This document shows positions 17,793 to 62,318 of a DNA stretch of 64,000 nt, piece by piece. Origin of the DNA: Pseudomonadales bacterium (GTDB lineage: Bacteria; Pseudomonadota; Gammaproteobacteria; Pseudomonadales; Azotimanducaceae). The DNA is taken from the NCBI GenBank assembly GCA_016763855.1, contig JAESSY010000148.1:1-64000 (forward strand). Direction: 5' to 3'. Position numbers and translations under genes: made by a program. How positions within the stretch are numbered: the first letter of the stretch is position 1; each line of letters starts with the position of its first letter. The notes beneath the pieces were generated by a model. The model made no database searches. It was not told where the DNA came from and saw only the letters and a program-made list of their open reading frames with translations.

Positions 17793-19172
17793 CTAGACTG
17801 AAACTGGATCTCGCATGGTGACAAATTCTTCAGCGGATGTCGGGTGAATACCTACCGTCGCATCGAAAACTGCTTTTGTTGCCCCTGCTTTTATCGCAAT
17901 TGCAATCCCTTGAATGATTTCACCTGCTTCCGCACCTACCATATGGACACCAATTACCTTATCAGATGCACGATCAACGATGATTTCCATCATGCTCAGC
18001 TCATCGCTACCAGACAAGGTATGTTTCATTGCTCGAAATTTTGATCGGTAAATATCGATATCACCATATTGGTCACGAGCTTCTGCTTCGGTCAGGCCCA
18101 CAGTACCGATATTTGGCTGACAAAACACTGCAGTAGCAATGTCATCATAATCCATCCTGTGGGGCTGATCTAAGAATTGGGTTTGAGCGAATGCCATCGC
18201 CTCTTTAATGGCCACCGGCGTCAGTTGAATTTTATCGGTAACGTCTCCTAATGCAAAAATACTGGGTTCTGAGGTTCTAAAGGCATCATCAACAATAATA
18301 GCGCCATTTTTTCTTAATTTGACATTGACATTTTCAAGCCCGATATCATCCACCGCAGGTGCCCGACCGGTAGCATACATTACAACATCAACTTCAAGTT
18401 CATCACCTTCTTTAAATTTGACATGGAAACACCCATCTTCATTTTTTTCAATGCTCGCCACATTTGAATTAAAGCGAAGATCGATGTGTTTTTTAGCTAG
18501 TTCCTCCGCAACAATTTCTCGGATATCCTGATCGAAATTCCGCAAAAATAACGGACCCCTATAAGACAGATGAGTTTCTGCCCCTAATCCTGCGAAAATG
18601 CCAGCAAACTCAACTGCGATATAACCCCCTCCAACAATGAGCGTTCTCTTAGGTAAGTCTTTTAGAAAGAAAGCTTCGTTCGACGTAATAACATGTTCTG
18701 ATCCTGGAAACACTGGTACTGTGGGCCAGCCCCCAGTGGCAATGAGTATTTTTTCTGTGGAAACCACTTTATTGTTAATGGAAATATGATGAGCATCGAC
18801 AATACGAGCCCTTCCATCGAAATGCGTTACACCCGCGTTATCGAGCAATCCCTGATAAATTCCGTTCAGGCGTTTAATTTCCGTATTTTTGTTTTCCAAG
18901 AAGGTAGGCCAATGAAATTTAGGCCTTGATTTCTGCCAACCAAATCCTTCGGCATTTTCATAATCTTCCGAAAAATGAGAGGCGTAAACCATGAGCTTTT
19001 TGGGGACACAACCGACATTTACGCAGGTTCCACCCATAAATTTGTCTTCAGCCGTGGCAACACGGGCACCATAATTTGCACTCATCCTTGCGGCTCTTAC
19101 ACCACCAGAACCAACGCCTATCACAAACAAATCATAATCGTATTGATTATCTACGTTTTTCATTACAGACAT
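17793..19172 (-). CDS. gor: Glutathione-disulfide reductase
   Basis: A 459-residue flavoprotein that reduces oxidised glutathione with NADPH. Seen are the FAD-binding GVGSGGVRAA (about 19-28), the redox-active disulfide GGTCVNVGC (C50, C55), the second dinucleotide motif GGGYIAVEFAG and the C-terminal active-site H443/E448 in GIHPTSAEE. Together with the selenocysteine glutathione peroxidase at 32970-33440 it would form a peroxide-removal pair, although the genes are about 14 kb apart. Confidence 0.93.
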   Translation of the reverse strand: MSVMKNVDNQYDYDLFVIGVGSGGVRAARMSANYGARVATAEDKFMGGTCVNVGCVPKKLMVYASHFSEDYENAEGFGWQKSRPKFHWPTFLENKNTEIKRLNGIYQGLLDNAGVTHFDGRARIVDAHHISINNKVVSTEKILIATGGWPTVPVFPGSEHVITSNEAFFLKDLPKRTLIVGGGYIAVEFAGIFAGLGAETHLSYRGPLFLRNFDQDIREIVAEELAKKHIDLRFNSNVASIEKNEDGCFHVKFKEGDELEVDVVMYATGRAPAVDDIGLENVNVKLRKNGAIIVDDAFRTSEPSIFALGDVTDKIQLTPVAIKEAMAFAQTQFLDQPHRMDYDDIATAVFCQPNIGTVGLTEAEARDQYGDIDIYRSKFRAMKHTLSGSDELSMMEIIVDRASDKVIGVHMVGAEAGEIIQGIAIAIKAGATKAVFDATVGIHPTSAEEFVTMRDPVSV

Positions 19173-30376: not shown

Positions 30377-30440
30377 ACAATGTCTATTTTGACAATACTG
30401 CTGACCAAGATTTCTAAATTTTTCTTGCCCGATCTAAATA

Positions 30441-30460
30441 TACTGTATATATTTACAGTA
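30441..30460. promoter_or_regulatory. LexA (SOS) box of imuAB
   Basis: TACTGTATATATTTACAGTA is almost identical to the E. coli LexA consensus, with the invariant CTG-N10-CAG. The final A of the box is the A of the first possible imuA ATG (30460), so repressor would sit directly on the start. ImuAB cassettes are LexA-controlled in many proteobacteria. Confidence 0.93.
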
Positions 30461-31317
30461 TGTCGAATAAAAGATCCACACTAGAAAAACTGATCATGAG
30501 TAATGATATCTGGCGTGCATCAAGCATTAATGCGGATGTTCACAACGGTATACCCAGTACTTACTCTCTGCTCGATCAACATTTATACGGCGGGGGCTGG
30601 CCACAAGATGGTTTAACAGAGTTATTACTCAACAAACTCGGCATTGGTGAATTGAGATTATTAACACCTGCCCTTGCCAAATTGAGCCAGGAGCAAAACC
30701 GTTGGTTATTGTGGGTCTCTCCACCACATATACCCTATGCTCCAGCCTTGGCCAAAGCCGGTATCGATTTAAGCAAGATTCTTATTGTTAATACCACCAG
30801 CCATGTGGACATGCTTTGGGTGCTTGAAAAAGCCCTTTCTTCAAAAAGCTGTTCCGCCGTCCTCGCATGGCCAGACTTTTTGTCAGCAGAGAAGGCATCG
30901 ACAGAGAAGAAATCGACAGAAAAGGCCCGGACAAAGCAGATTCCGCAACTAGAAAAACATTTGCGACGACTGCAAATTGCCAGCAAAGAAGGTCAATGCC
31001 TTGGCATTTTATTCCGAAACAACAGCGCTGCCAAAAATGCTTCTCCTGCAGAACTCAGAATTCAACTACAGGCACAAGTCGCAGTGAGTGAACATTCACG
31101 ACTCAAAGTAAAGGTTTTAAAACGCAAAGGTGGCTGGCCGAGTGACTTCTTAGATATCGAATTTAATGACCACCTTAATCTTATGACACCGGATTTTTCG
31201 GAGCTACAAATCAATAATCATTCAGATAGCTTACCAGACTGTCTATCACCAAAAGACGCGCAAAAGAACGCACCGATAGACACATACTCAAGCCACCACC
31301 TAAACCCGCATTTATGA
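30460..31317 (+). CDS. imuA: Translesion synthesis accessory protein ImuA
   Basis: A 285-residue RecA/SulA-like protein of the ImuA family. Family features are IWRASSINADVHNGIPSTYS, LDQHLYGGGWPQDGLTELL and the region LRLLTPALAKLSQEQNRWLLWVSPP. It works with ImuB and the DnaE2 polymerase in damage-induced mutagenesis. A lysine/glutamate-rich low-complexity insertion (about 140-165) is unusual. The ATG at 30460 abuts the LexA box; an internal ATG at 30496 could be the true start if transcription begins inside the box. It overlaps imuB by 4 bp. Confidence 0.87.
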   Translation: MSNKRSTLEKLIMSNDIWRASSINADVHNGIPSTYSLLDQHLYGGGWPQDGLTELLLNKLGIGELRLLTPALAKLSQEQNRWLLWVSPPHIPYAPALAKAGIDLSKILIVNTTSHVDMLWVLEKALSSKSCSAVLAWPDFLSAEKASTEKKSTEKARTKQIPQLEKHLRRLQIASKEGQCLGILFRNNSAAKNASPAELRIQLQAQVAVSEHSRLKVKVLKRKGGWPSDFLDIEFNDHLNLMTPDFSELQINNHSDSLPDCLSPKDAQKNAPIDTYSSHHLNPHL

Positions 31318-32891
31318 CGACTAATACGCGCAATAATATAAGCAATAACACCCCTTTATGGATGTGTTTGCATTTTACAAAACTTCCTTTGGAAGTTTTT
31401 TTAAGGTCGAACACTTCAGAAGAAAATGCCGGGGACCATGCAGTCGTTATTGATAAAAAACAACCAGTTGTTATTACTGAAAAACAACGTGTGTTTCATA
31501 TGAACGATATGGCAAAAGAAGTAGGCATTCAAATTGGCAATAGCATGGATACCACTTACACCTTTAGTAACAATGTACTTTGCTTTGAACGAGATGATGA
31601 TAGAGAAACGAGCACCCTTGCCCATCTTGCTCAATGGGCTTATCAATTTACACCAAAAGTTTCTATCAGATCACCAGATTGTTTGTTACTCGATATCGGA
31701 GGTTGTTTAAAATTATTTAAAGGATTAAACAATCTAATCGTCAGTATTGAACAGGGTTTACATAAATTAGGCTACCAGGCACTCATCGCCACTAATACCA
31801 CACCCCTTTCAGCTCTAATTATTGCCCGGGCGCATGCCACAAATTTAATACATACGGATCATGACAAACTCGAAAATAGTATTGGCCAATTATCTGTTCA
31901 AAATTTGCAGGCAGAAGAAAAAATTATCATCGCTTTGAAACAAATGGGGATCACTAATCTCCACACCTTACTTGGATTACCTGCCGAAGGAATCAGTCGT
32001 CGTCTCGGCACTTACTTTAATGATTATTTACTGAGGCTAAAGGGAGAAAAGGCAGATCCACAAAAAATTATCAATCCCAATGCCAGATTCTTATCCAGTA
32101 TCAACTTCCTCTTTGATATTACAAACTTAAACTCCTTGATCTTCCCCATAAAGAGATTGTTGGGCGAACTTTCAGATTTTTTAAAGGGACGACAGCTCAC
32201 CATTAACCATTTCACCTGGCACCTATCCCATCGAAAATCACCTTACAGTGATTCATTGCACAAAAAGCACTTCAAAAAAACCTTCAGCATTTCACTAGCA
32301 AGCCCCATAAATGAAACGCGTGTTTTTTTAGCGTTAACACAACTTAAACTGGATCAAATTAACGATGTAAAAGAAGTTGATAGTATCACCCTCATCGCTA
32401 ACCGCTTTTATCCACTTAGTGCTGACAGTAAAAGTTTATTTCGAGATAGTTACACACCATCGAGAGATTTTAATGAACATAATTCGGAACACAATGATCA
32501 ACTACTTAACATCCTTAATGCTAAACTAGGCTCAGGACAATATTTTGGTTTATCGCAATCTGATGATCATCGGCCTGAAAAAGCATGGAAAAAAGTAAAC
32601 TTGAGCAAAAAGCATCATTGGTCCCCAGAAAAACAGGATTCGCTATTAAGACCCAGCTTTTTACTCACTACACCAAAAGCATTGGCTATGTCCGGTGATA
32701 TGCCCCACCTAGCAGGCCAGCTAACACTACTCAAAGGACCGGAGAGAATTGATTATGGTTGGTGGGATGAAACCGAAAATAAACCACTAACCCGAGATTA
32801 CTATATTGCTAGTCAAAAGGATGGCACGCTTTATTGGATATTTAAATATATCACTATGGATCAATGGTACTTACACGGTATATTCTCTTAA
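31314..32891 (+). CDS. imuB: Y-family polymerase-like protein ImuB
   Basis: A 525-residue DNA-polymerase-IV-like protein that acts as an adaptor for DnaE2. The N-terminal region CLHFTKLPLEVF lacks the catalytic Asp present at the equivalent place in active Y-family polymerases, as expected for ImuB. Also visible are LLLDIGGCLKLFKG, the thumb-region ALKQMGITNLHTLLGLP, and the C-terminal GPERIDYGWWDE and RDYYIASQKDGTLYWIF typical of ImuB. It overlaps imuA by ATGA. No dnaE2 follows, so that gene must be elsewhere if the system is complete. Confidence 0.9.
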   Translation: MTTNTRNNISNNTPLWMCLHFTKLPLEVFLRSNTSEENAGDHAVVIDKKQPVVITEKQRVFHMNDMAKEVGIQIGNSMDTTYTFSNNVLCFERDDDRETSTLAHLAQWAYQFTPKVSIRSPDCLLLDIGGCLKLFKGLNNLIVSIEQGLHKLGYQALIATNTTPLSALIIARAHATNLIHTDHDKLENSIGQLSVQNLQAEEKIIIALKQMGITNLHTLLGLPAEGISRRLGTYFNDYLLRLKGEKADPQKIINPNARFLSSINFLFDITNLNSLIFPIKRLLGELSDFLKGRQLTINHFTWHLSHRKSPYSDSLHKKHFKKTFSISLASPINETRVFLALTQLKLDQINDVKEVDSITLIANRFYPLSADSKSLFRDSYTPSRDFNEHNSEHNDQLLNILNAKLGSGQYFGLSQSDDHRPEKAWKKVNLSKKHHWSPEKQDSLLRPSFLLTTPKALAMSGDMPHLAGQLTLLKGPERIDYGWWDETENKPLTRDYYIASQKDGTLYWIFKYITMDQWYLHGIFS

Positions 32892-32969
32892 AGAACCTCA
32901 GACAGGCTCCTAGCCTCTTCTCATGAACAAAAATCGGAAACTAAAAAGACTGAACTAAAAGGAAAGGTT

Positions 32970-33440
32970 ATGGATATTTACCAGCTCGAAATGGAAGGCA
33001 TTAAGGGCGAAACAATCAACTTTGCAGACTATCGAAATGAAGCCTTACTGATTGTAAATCTAGCAAGCCAATGAGGCTTAACCGATCAGTATGCAGGTCT
33101 GCGTACTTTGCACGACAATGCCAAAGGATTAACAGTTATGGGATTCCCCTGTAATCAATTTGGGGCTCAAGAGCCCGGATCAAATGCCGAAATATTAGAA
33201 TTTGCCCAAACTAAGTATTCCGTTACTTTTCCCATGTTTGCCAAGATCGATGTCAACGGAGCAGATGCAGCACCGCTCTTTCAATGGCTGAAAACAGAAA
33301 AACAAGACGAAGAAGGCAAAGAGGATATCGCCTGGAATTTCGCCAAATTTCTAATCAACTCTGAGGGAAAAGTTGTAAAACGATTTCACCCTAAAACGAC
33401 TCCAGAAGAGATAGCAGCTCAATTAGAAAGCCTCTTATAG
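32970..33440 (+). CDS. Selenocysteine-containing glutathione peroxidase (TGA = Sec at codon 35)
   Basis: A 156-residue glutathione peroxidase that reduces hydroperoxides with glutathione or another thiol. Translation from ATG 32970, after AAAGGAAAGGTT, reads NLASQ, then TGA (33072-33074), then GLTDQYAGL. This is the family active site NVASxCG with TGA in place of the peroxidatic Cys codon. The rest of the catalytic tetrad is intact: Q63 in FPCNQFGAQEPG, and W122 and N123 in WNFAKFLI. A SECIS hairpin follows the TGA (33088-33107) and tRNA-Sec is in the window, so readthrough as selenocysteine is far more likely than a nonsense mutation. A caller ignoring Sec would start at TTG 33108 and lose the active site. 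Confidence 0.92.
33088..33107 (+). promoter_or_regulatory. Bacterial SECIS element in the glutathione peroxidase mRNA
   Basis: A perfect 8-bp stem AGUAUGCA/UGCGUACU (one U-G pair) closes a four-base loop GGUC. The loop begins 22 bases past the UGA. The tip GCAGGUCUGC is the same as I recall for the E. coli fdhF SECIS, where SelB binds. Position and shape fit a functional SelB-binding element. Confidence 0.88.
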
Positions 33441-62202: not shown

Positions 62203-62296
62203 TGGCGGTAGAGGTAGGAGTCGAACCCACCAATCACCTCTTCGGCAACTCAACGGCTTTGAAGACCGCGCGCTCCACCGGGAGCGACGCTCTACC
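62203..62296 (-). tRNA. selC: tRNA-Sec (anticodon TCA)
   Basis: The minus strand folds into a tRNA-Sec: acceptor GGTAGAG/CTCTACC, 6-bp D stem CGCTCC/GGAGCG with loop CGGT, anticodon loop CTTCAAA (TCA), a long variable arm AGTTGCC/GGTGATT, the T loop TTCGACT, discriminator G and an encoded CCA. Long extra arm and 6-bp D stem are diagnostic. The 3' side of the acceptor/T branch is one base shorter than in E. coli, so only 7+5 pairs form instead of 8+5; this could be a missing base. It begins 22 bp after the acyl-CoA synthetase stop. Confidence 0.93.
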
Positions 62297-62318
62297 GCTG
62301 CGCAGTCTATCAAATTAT

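Follow-up and report, generated by a model that had tools for sequence, protein, structure and literature searches.

We identified a gene, gpx (32970..33440, forward strand), that is very probably a functional bacterial selenoprotein gene belonging to the glutathione peroxidase (GPx) family; we infer the incorporation of selenocysteine (Sec) at its in-frame TGA. The gene lies in the window, the 64,000-nucleotide stretch of DNA that we analysed, and encodes 156 amino acids followed by a TAG stop at 33438-33440. A Shine-Dalgarno-like run, AAAAGGAAAGG (32957..32967, forward strand), can be read upstream of its ATG. The frame at 32970-33437 (forward strand) contains NLASQ-TGA-GLTDQ, and its sole internal stop is the TGA at 33072-33074 (forward strand), which comparison with homologues places at the peroxidatic position and which would be read as Sec35. 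The read-through protein matched Pfam GSHPx (PF00255) over the full length of the model (1-108) with an E-value of 5.2e-39 and 132.6 bits (cut-off 27), and its best solved natural relatives include yeast Hyr1, poplar Gpx5 and human GPX4. The TGA occupies the catalytic place of an otherwise intact GSHPx, which favours the selenoprotein reading. This bears out the original prediction of an in-frame TGA at the catalytic cysteine with both flanks intact, and also its expectation that ordinary ORF calling would report a start-truncated peroxidase: plain calling yields a 110-aa fragment alone, which starts at TTG 33108, 3' of the TGA.

We scanned the whole window for frames of at least 90 codons interrupted by a single TGA, with at least 20 codons before it and at least 30 after. 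Among the 11 candidates, gpx was the only one less than half overlapped by an ORF of ≥ 150 aa.

Active site and probable reductant

We compared 98 GPx sequences, 34 with Sec and 64 with cysteine, comprising 30 fetched loci (best matches first) of a 58-genome search and 68 of the 80 named loci listed. The other 12 named loci did not fit the gene-cutting motif and were left out of the stem, tree and residue counts; weaker stop-free GPx matches of the 58-genome search (e.g., in G010 and G013 of the window's family), which may be additional returns to Cys or paralogues, are absent from the 98 rows. The alignment with Cys homologues, one of the checks proposed for this gene, showed Sec/Cys pairing at the TGA position. 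Positions 35, 67, 122 and 123 are invariant in all 30 homologue rows. We take Sec35, Gln67 (33168..33170), Trp122 (33333-33335) and Asn123 (33336-33338, all on the forward strand) to be the GPx catalytic tetrad known from GPX4.

The Sec and Cys forms differ at position 79. Here 60 of the 64 Cys-GPx rows carry a cysteine, the resolving one, and the four that lack it are exactly the Cys forms that fall inside the Sec clade described below. None of the 34 Sec forms has Cys79 (Ala in 33, Val in one). gpx itself encodes Ala79 (33204..33206, forward strand) and so lacks the resolving cysteine that defines the thioredoxin-type 2-Cys GPx. Sec35, held by Gln67, Trp122 and Asn123, would reduce hydroperoxides to the alcohol or water and become a selenenic acid. 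Two thiol molecules, probably glutathione, would then most likely reduce it back directly, as they do in monomeric GPX4. Direct regeneration by two thiols is likelier than a disulfide/thioredoxin route, which many Cys-GPx use, because the resolving cysteine is absent. We infer both substrate and reductant, and the reductant is most likely glutathione. A true selenoprotein that draws on thioredoxin or a protein thiol instead is the strongest of the alternatives, although we consider it rather unlikely: many non-mammalian Cys-GPx are functionally thioredoxin peroxidases, according to PMC7763103, but none of the 34 Sec forms has the resolving cysteine, and the organism's own genome has a glutathione synthase gene. 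It also has a glutathione-reductase-like gene in the window (17793..19172, reverse strand) with Pyr_redox domains, which scores 462 bits against TIGR01421, below the cut-off of 556. This gene is a possible source of reduced glutathione.

One of the closest known systems is mammalian GPX4, a Sec-GPx of similar length with 42-45% identity that is not known to have a resolving cysteine either. The predicted structure (pLDDT 88, modelled with Cys in place of Sec) had a TM-score of ~0.9 to GPX4, and likewise to poplar Gpx5 and a schistosome GPx in a fold search. gpx and GPX4 differ in that GPX4 has its SECIS element in the 3'UTR, whereas that of gpx lies in-frame directly after the UGA. Bacterial Cys-GPx, yeast Hyr1 and poplar Gpx5 share the fold and overall sequence of the gpx protein but use Cys and mostly keep the resolving Cys.

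Relatives, decoding machinery and the SECIS hairpin

We searched 58 genomes, including the organism's own, and found some gpx match in 51. A match with exactly one TGA occurred in 27, and in all 27 the TGA is at the catalytic position. The window's family, with 37 genomes in the search, accounts for 26 of them, and the remaining one is a genome of family f4 (G039). An order-wide search of 390 genomes returned one-TGA matches in at least 11, of which at least nine belong to the window's family; those listed outside it are G039 and G285 (family f47, 6% contamination). Two further genomes, G345 and G411, each consisting of one contig, have a match with one TGA somewhere inside it. In a phylum-wide search of 398 genomes at a strict E-value of 1e-48, 10 genomes matched and the TGA form was found only in the organism's own. 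Among the matches listed in a scan of named genomes, at least seven further Sec forms were present in the 68 readable of 80 loci: four are titled Gammaproteobacteria or Pseudomonadales, two Acidimicrobia and one Deltaproteobacteria. The acidimicrobial and deltaproteobacterial forms may reflect either gene transfer or misbinned contigs.

Because the same TGA gene occurs in 27 of 58 genomes, the TGA of gpx is not due to chance or a base error. The genome is a draft in 207 contigs, and a sequencing or assembly error hiding a true cysteine codon could be imagined; with the identical codon at the identical place in 27 separate genomes, and a SECIS element in register, we regard this as extremely improbable.

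The organism encodes what is, by sequence, a complete bacterial Sec decoding set (selA, selB, selC and selD). The tRNA-Sec gene (selC, anticodon TCA) lies in the window at 62204..62297 on the reverse strand, as identified by ARAGORN and by Rfam RF01852 at 64.9 bits. On the same contig, ~0.9 kb past the window end, a profile search located selD on the reverse strand (L134:3379-5547) as a 722-aa NDH-SelD fusion (E-value 2.4e-80), in which SelD is joined to a pyridine-nucleotide oxidoreductase domain. It is located apart from selA (1.9e-175, 460 aa) and selB (2.1e-135, 621 aa), which share a four-base overlap on contig C12 of the genome. The search for selA, selB and selD, on whose absence the Sec reading was to be given up, thus found all three as well as tRNA-Sec. 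Reassignment of UGA to Cys or Trp would be compatible with the cysteine that Cys homologues carry at the TGA position, but it is most improbable given this decoding set and the ordinary use of TGA as a stop in the window, where it ends 11 of the 48 ORFs that reach 150 aa.

Across the 58 genomes, the TGA gene is clearly associated with the decoding genes, though with exceptions. selB was above the cut-off in 24 of the 27 TGA genomes and in 12 of the remaining 31 (Fisher p = 1.1e-4, uncorrected for relatedness). The corresponding counts, again ignoring relatedness, were 25 of 27 versus 13 of 31 for selA and 23 of 27 versus 13 of 31 for tRNA-Sec. We counted tRNA-Sec at ≥ 59 bits and took matches of 48-50 bits (G013, G042 and G015), which are above the Rfam cut-off, as chance; G013 and G015 were still counted through a better match. 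Two TGA genomes, G003 (87% complete) and G031 (85%), had neither selA nor selB above the cut-off and no tRNA-Sec at ≥ 59 bits, and selD, searched alongside, was also missing from G003. G021 had no selB, no tRNA-Sec and a partial selA, and G025 lacked only tRNA-Sec. For G003, a chance assembly gap is an uncomfortable explanation because in its near relative G004 these genes span three contigs. A real loss of the machinery that left an orphan TGA gene is possible in G003 and G031. The G003 locus itself (L004) retains a TGA-GPx with an intact hairpin, though the genome is without selA, selB, selD and a strong tRNA-Sec. Among the matches listed, selB was above the cut-off in all nine genomes of the named clade loci (seven Sec, two Cys); in those of L057, L061 and L063, the acidimicrobial and deltaproteobacterial forms, the match covered <60% of the model, at 257-288 bits against a cut-off of 242.

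Downstream of the UGA, the gpx mRNA can form a hairpin, AGUAUGCA-GGUC-UGCGUACU, identified by folding and homologue comparison at 33088..33107 (forward strand). It has an 8-bp stem and a GGUC loop (33096-33099), spans nt 14-33 downstream of the UGA, with its loop separated from the UGA by 21 nt, and on its own folds at -8.3 kcal/mol. These values are within all the bacterial SECIS limits given in PMC13188914 (loop of 3-9 nt with G in the first two places, stem of 4-16 bp, 16-37 nt from the UGA and a minimum free energy of -7.5 or lower). The E. coli fdhF SECIS has the same core, GCAGGTCTGC, after UGA codon 140; it differs in the bases flanking the core, and its pairing beside the core is interrupted. 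By this hairpin, SelB carrying Sec-tRNA-Sec would bind 14-33 nt past the UGA and the ribosome would insert Sec35 and not stop.

Only 0.36% of 20,000 synonymous recodings of gpx had a stem of ≥ 8 bp in an allowed place. An unbroken stem of ≥ 7 bp was present in 31 of 34 Sec genes versus three of 64 Cys genes, although stem length is a crude measure because the proven E. coli fdhF hairpin scores just 4 bp. The hairpin is conserved and in register among the TGA relatives. It spans codons 40-46, and in the Sec genes Gln40 is CAG in 34 of 34 and Tyr41 is TAC in 33 of 34, whereas both codons vary in the 64 Cys genes (CAA 35 and CAG 28; TAC 28 and TAT 22). Codons 42 (Ala) to 45 (Arg) of gpx occupy 33093..33104 (forward strand), and residues 42 and 45 lie opposite each other in the stem and covary in relatives. 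The Sec forms have either Ala/Arg (29) or Thr/Cys (5) at these residues and never a mixture; the switch replaces a G-C pair with an A-U pair and preserves the stem. These residues change only together, as RNA pairing in the stem would require. Two distinct parts of the clade show Thr42/Cys45 (L004 and L005; L012, L020 and L055). Arg45 is found in none of the 64 Cys-GPx, of which 60 have Glu or Gln there.

Folding energy and covariation by themselves are not convincing for a SECIS. The energy of the 54-nt stretch at the gpx hairpin is unremarkable against shuffled sequences (z = -1.16; 26 of 200 fold equally well). After the catalytic codon, Sec genes fold at a mean of -11.5 (range -17.3 to -9.1) and Cys genes at -8.9 (range -16.3 to -2.2), so the two overlap. 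A single pair of the hairpin changed on both sides, giving a covariation score of 0.130 with 95.8% of cells paired; sliding the register by -2 raised the score to 0.151 but left 72.5% of cells paired. An Rfam search at a permissive threshold gave three chance-level matches, none of them at the gpx hairpin.

The proposal that Sec replaces the peroxidatic Cys is supported by the Sec genes, by Sec/Cys pairing with homologues and by the SECIS hairpin. The same data leave a negligible chance that gpx is a pseudogene produced by a nonsense mutation of a Cys-GPx. A 3' fragment alone is what plain ORF calling yields, but the same TGA recurs in 27 of 58 genomes, both the hairpin and the half of the gene after the TGA are conserved, and the Sec machinery is present. 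We rejected pseudogene, base error and reassigned code alike on the conserved TGA and frame, the tRNA-Sec and Sel genes, and the use of TGA as a stop.

A SECIS model built from the gpx family (R1) and searched against the organism's own genome recovered gpx at 4.6e-13 and everything else at an E-value of 0.28 or worse, and therefore finds no other selenoproteins there. The genome also encodes an AhpC/TSA-type redoxin with the sequence ASW-TGA-GCRNDLP, its TGA at L002:1588-1590 (G000:C126:9755-9757). Downstream of this TGA, CTTGCC and GGCAAG can pair around a CGGGT loop that lies 20 nt from the TGA, and the predicted fold of the stretch (-10.5 kcal/mol) contains this hairpin. From its sequence, the redoxin is a probable second selenoprotein, with a UGC motif like that of the 'Prx-like (UGC-containing)' family in the GOS survey. 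SelD genes with one in-frame TGA occur in three genomes of the window's family (G022:C210, G015:C33 and G005:C37) and possibly encode Sec-containing SelD.

Probable returns to cysteine within the Sec clade

We placed the 98 GPx sequences in a maximum-likelihood tree, with a bootstrap that had not completely converged. One clade, supported at 100/98, consists of all 34 Sec forms together with four Cys forms (L011, L026, L054 and L058). The Sec/Cys label requires four changes on this tree, three of them forced by well-supported branches, whereas shuffled labels need 28. By parsimony on this one tree, Sec would most simply have been gained once and given up for Cys two or three times. The candidate returns are L011, L058, and L026 with L054, which are joined at 99/70. 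Two is the safer count because L011 sits at an unresolved fork and could fall outside the Sec forms.

The hairpin is missing from all four of these Cys forms (stems of at most 2-4 bp; folding energies between -2.7 and -5.0 kcal/mol), and the AGGTCT core remains in L026 and L054. Such SECIS remnants appear in the 2006 survey (PMC1794560) for FdhA and a HesB-like protein. A 2026 review describes bacterial Sec-to-Cys changes as rare and documented mainly for FdhA and SelD.

Bacterial Sec-GPx have already been described, and gpx adds a member: five sequences were reported from the Sargasso Sea, 40 from the GOS survey and one from the 2006 genome survey (PMC1794560). The 2026 review lists a GPX-like selenoprotein family (PF00255) with the motif UxxT. 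The suggestion that bacterial Sec forms of this enzyme are uncommon was therefore overstated. gpx shares PF00255 and the UxxT motif (here U-G-L-T) with the listed family, compared by description only. A Sec-GPx that recurs regularly through one gammaproteobacterial family, reversion of this enzyme to Cys and a link to imuAB were not among the features that we met in the passages and search listings consulted.

The imuA-imuB neighbourhood and what the family offers

Upstream of gpx, on the same strand, lie two genes that we name imuA and imuB from their place and family. The imuA-like gene (30460..31317, forward strand; Pfam SulA) is followed by the imuB-like gene (31314..32891, forward strand; Pfam IMS), which ends 78 bases upstream of gpx. 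A LexA-like box, CTGTATATATTTACAG (30443..30458, forward strand), sits ahead of imuA-imuB-gpx within TACTGTATATATTTACAGTA; no other exact match to CTGTN8ACAG occurs in the window. Allowing one mismatch gives 12 sites there against an expectation of 19, and since this is fewer than expected, only the exact box carries weight. Across the 80 named loci listed (496,626 bases in all), the exact motif occurs once.

We examined the gpx neighbourhood at 36 loci (29 of L003-L031 and seven named). imuB was found at nine. It is directly upstream on the same strand at eight (L003, L004, L005, L007, L020, L021, L026 and L055), 40-99 bases from the alignment end, and lies by gpx on the opposite strand in L006. 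We did not see it at the other 27, where flanks were mostly 1.5 kb. We extended the loci of five relatives further upstream, picking ones in which imuB stands ahead of gpx, and all five have the order imuA-imuB-gpx. The LexA-like box precedes imuA in six of six loci; the window and L151-L154 have it in exact form, whereas L155, a Cys form, has one mismatch. The distance from the box to the imuA alignment start ranges from 1 to 314 bases, and L153 has an additional exact site between imuB and gpx.

No terminator-like site was found on the forward strand in the 78 bases between imuB and gpx. Two forward-strand promoter-like sites precede gpx, one at 30425-30453, overlapping the box, and the other inside imuB; the overall number of promoter-like sites, seven versus 7.7 expected, is not above chance. 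This arrangement tentatively suggests that LexA might repress imuA-imuB-gpx as one transcript and that DNA damage might induce the Sec peroxidase together with the mutagenesis factors ImuA and ImuB, a reading that we hold with some reserve. Such control would apply to only part of the family (imuB linkage at 8 of 36 loci). Our literature search found nothing joining imuA or imuB to glutathione peroxidase, and nothing joining selenoproteins to the SOS response or LexA, which is no proof of absence from print. Should the link hold, selenium use in some members of the family would be coupled to their response to DNA damage.

Related bacteria carry the gpx enzyme either with Sec or with regained Cys, and together they form a dense natural series. 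All its Sec forms have given up the resolving cysteine, which is missing also in the four Cys forms of the clade, and the hairpin visibly dictates two amino acids of the GPx. The two or three apparent returns from Sec to Cys concern GPx, whereas the 2026 review names mainly FdhA and SelD. With this natural Sec/Cys series, the question of why Sec is used and not Cys therefore becomes testable in one background.
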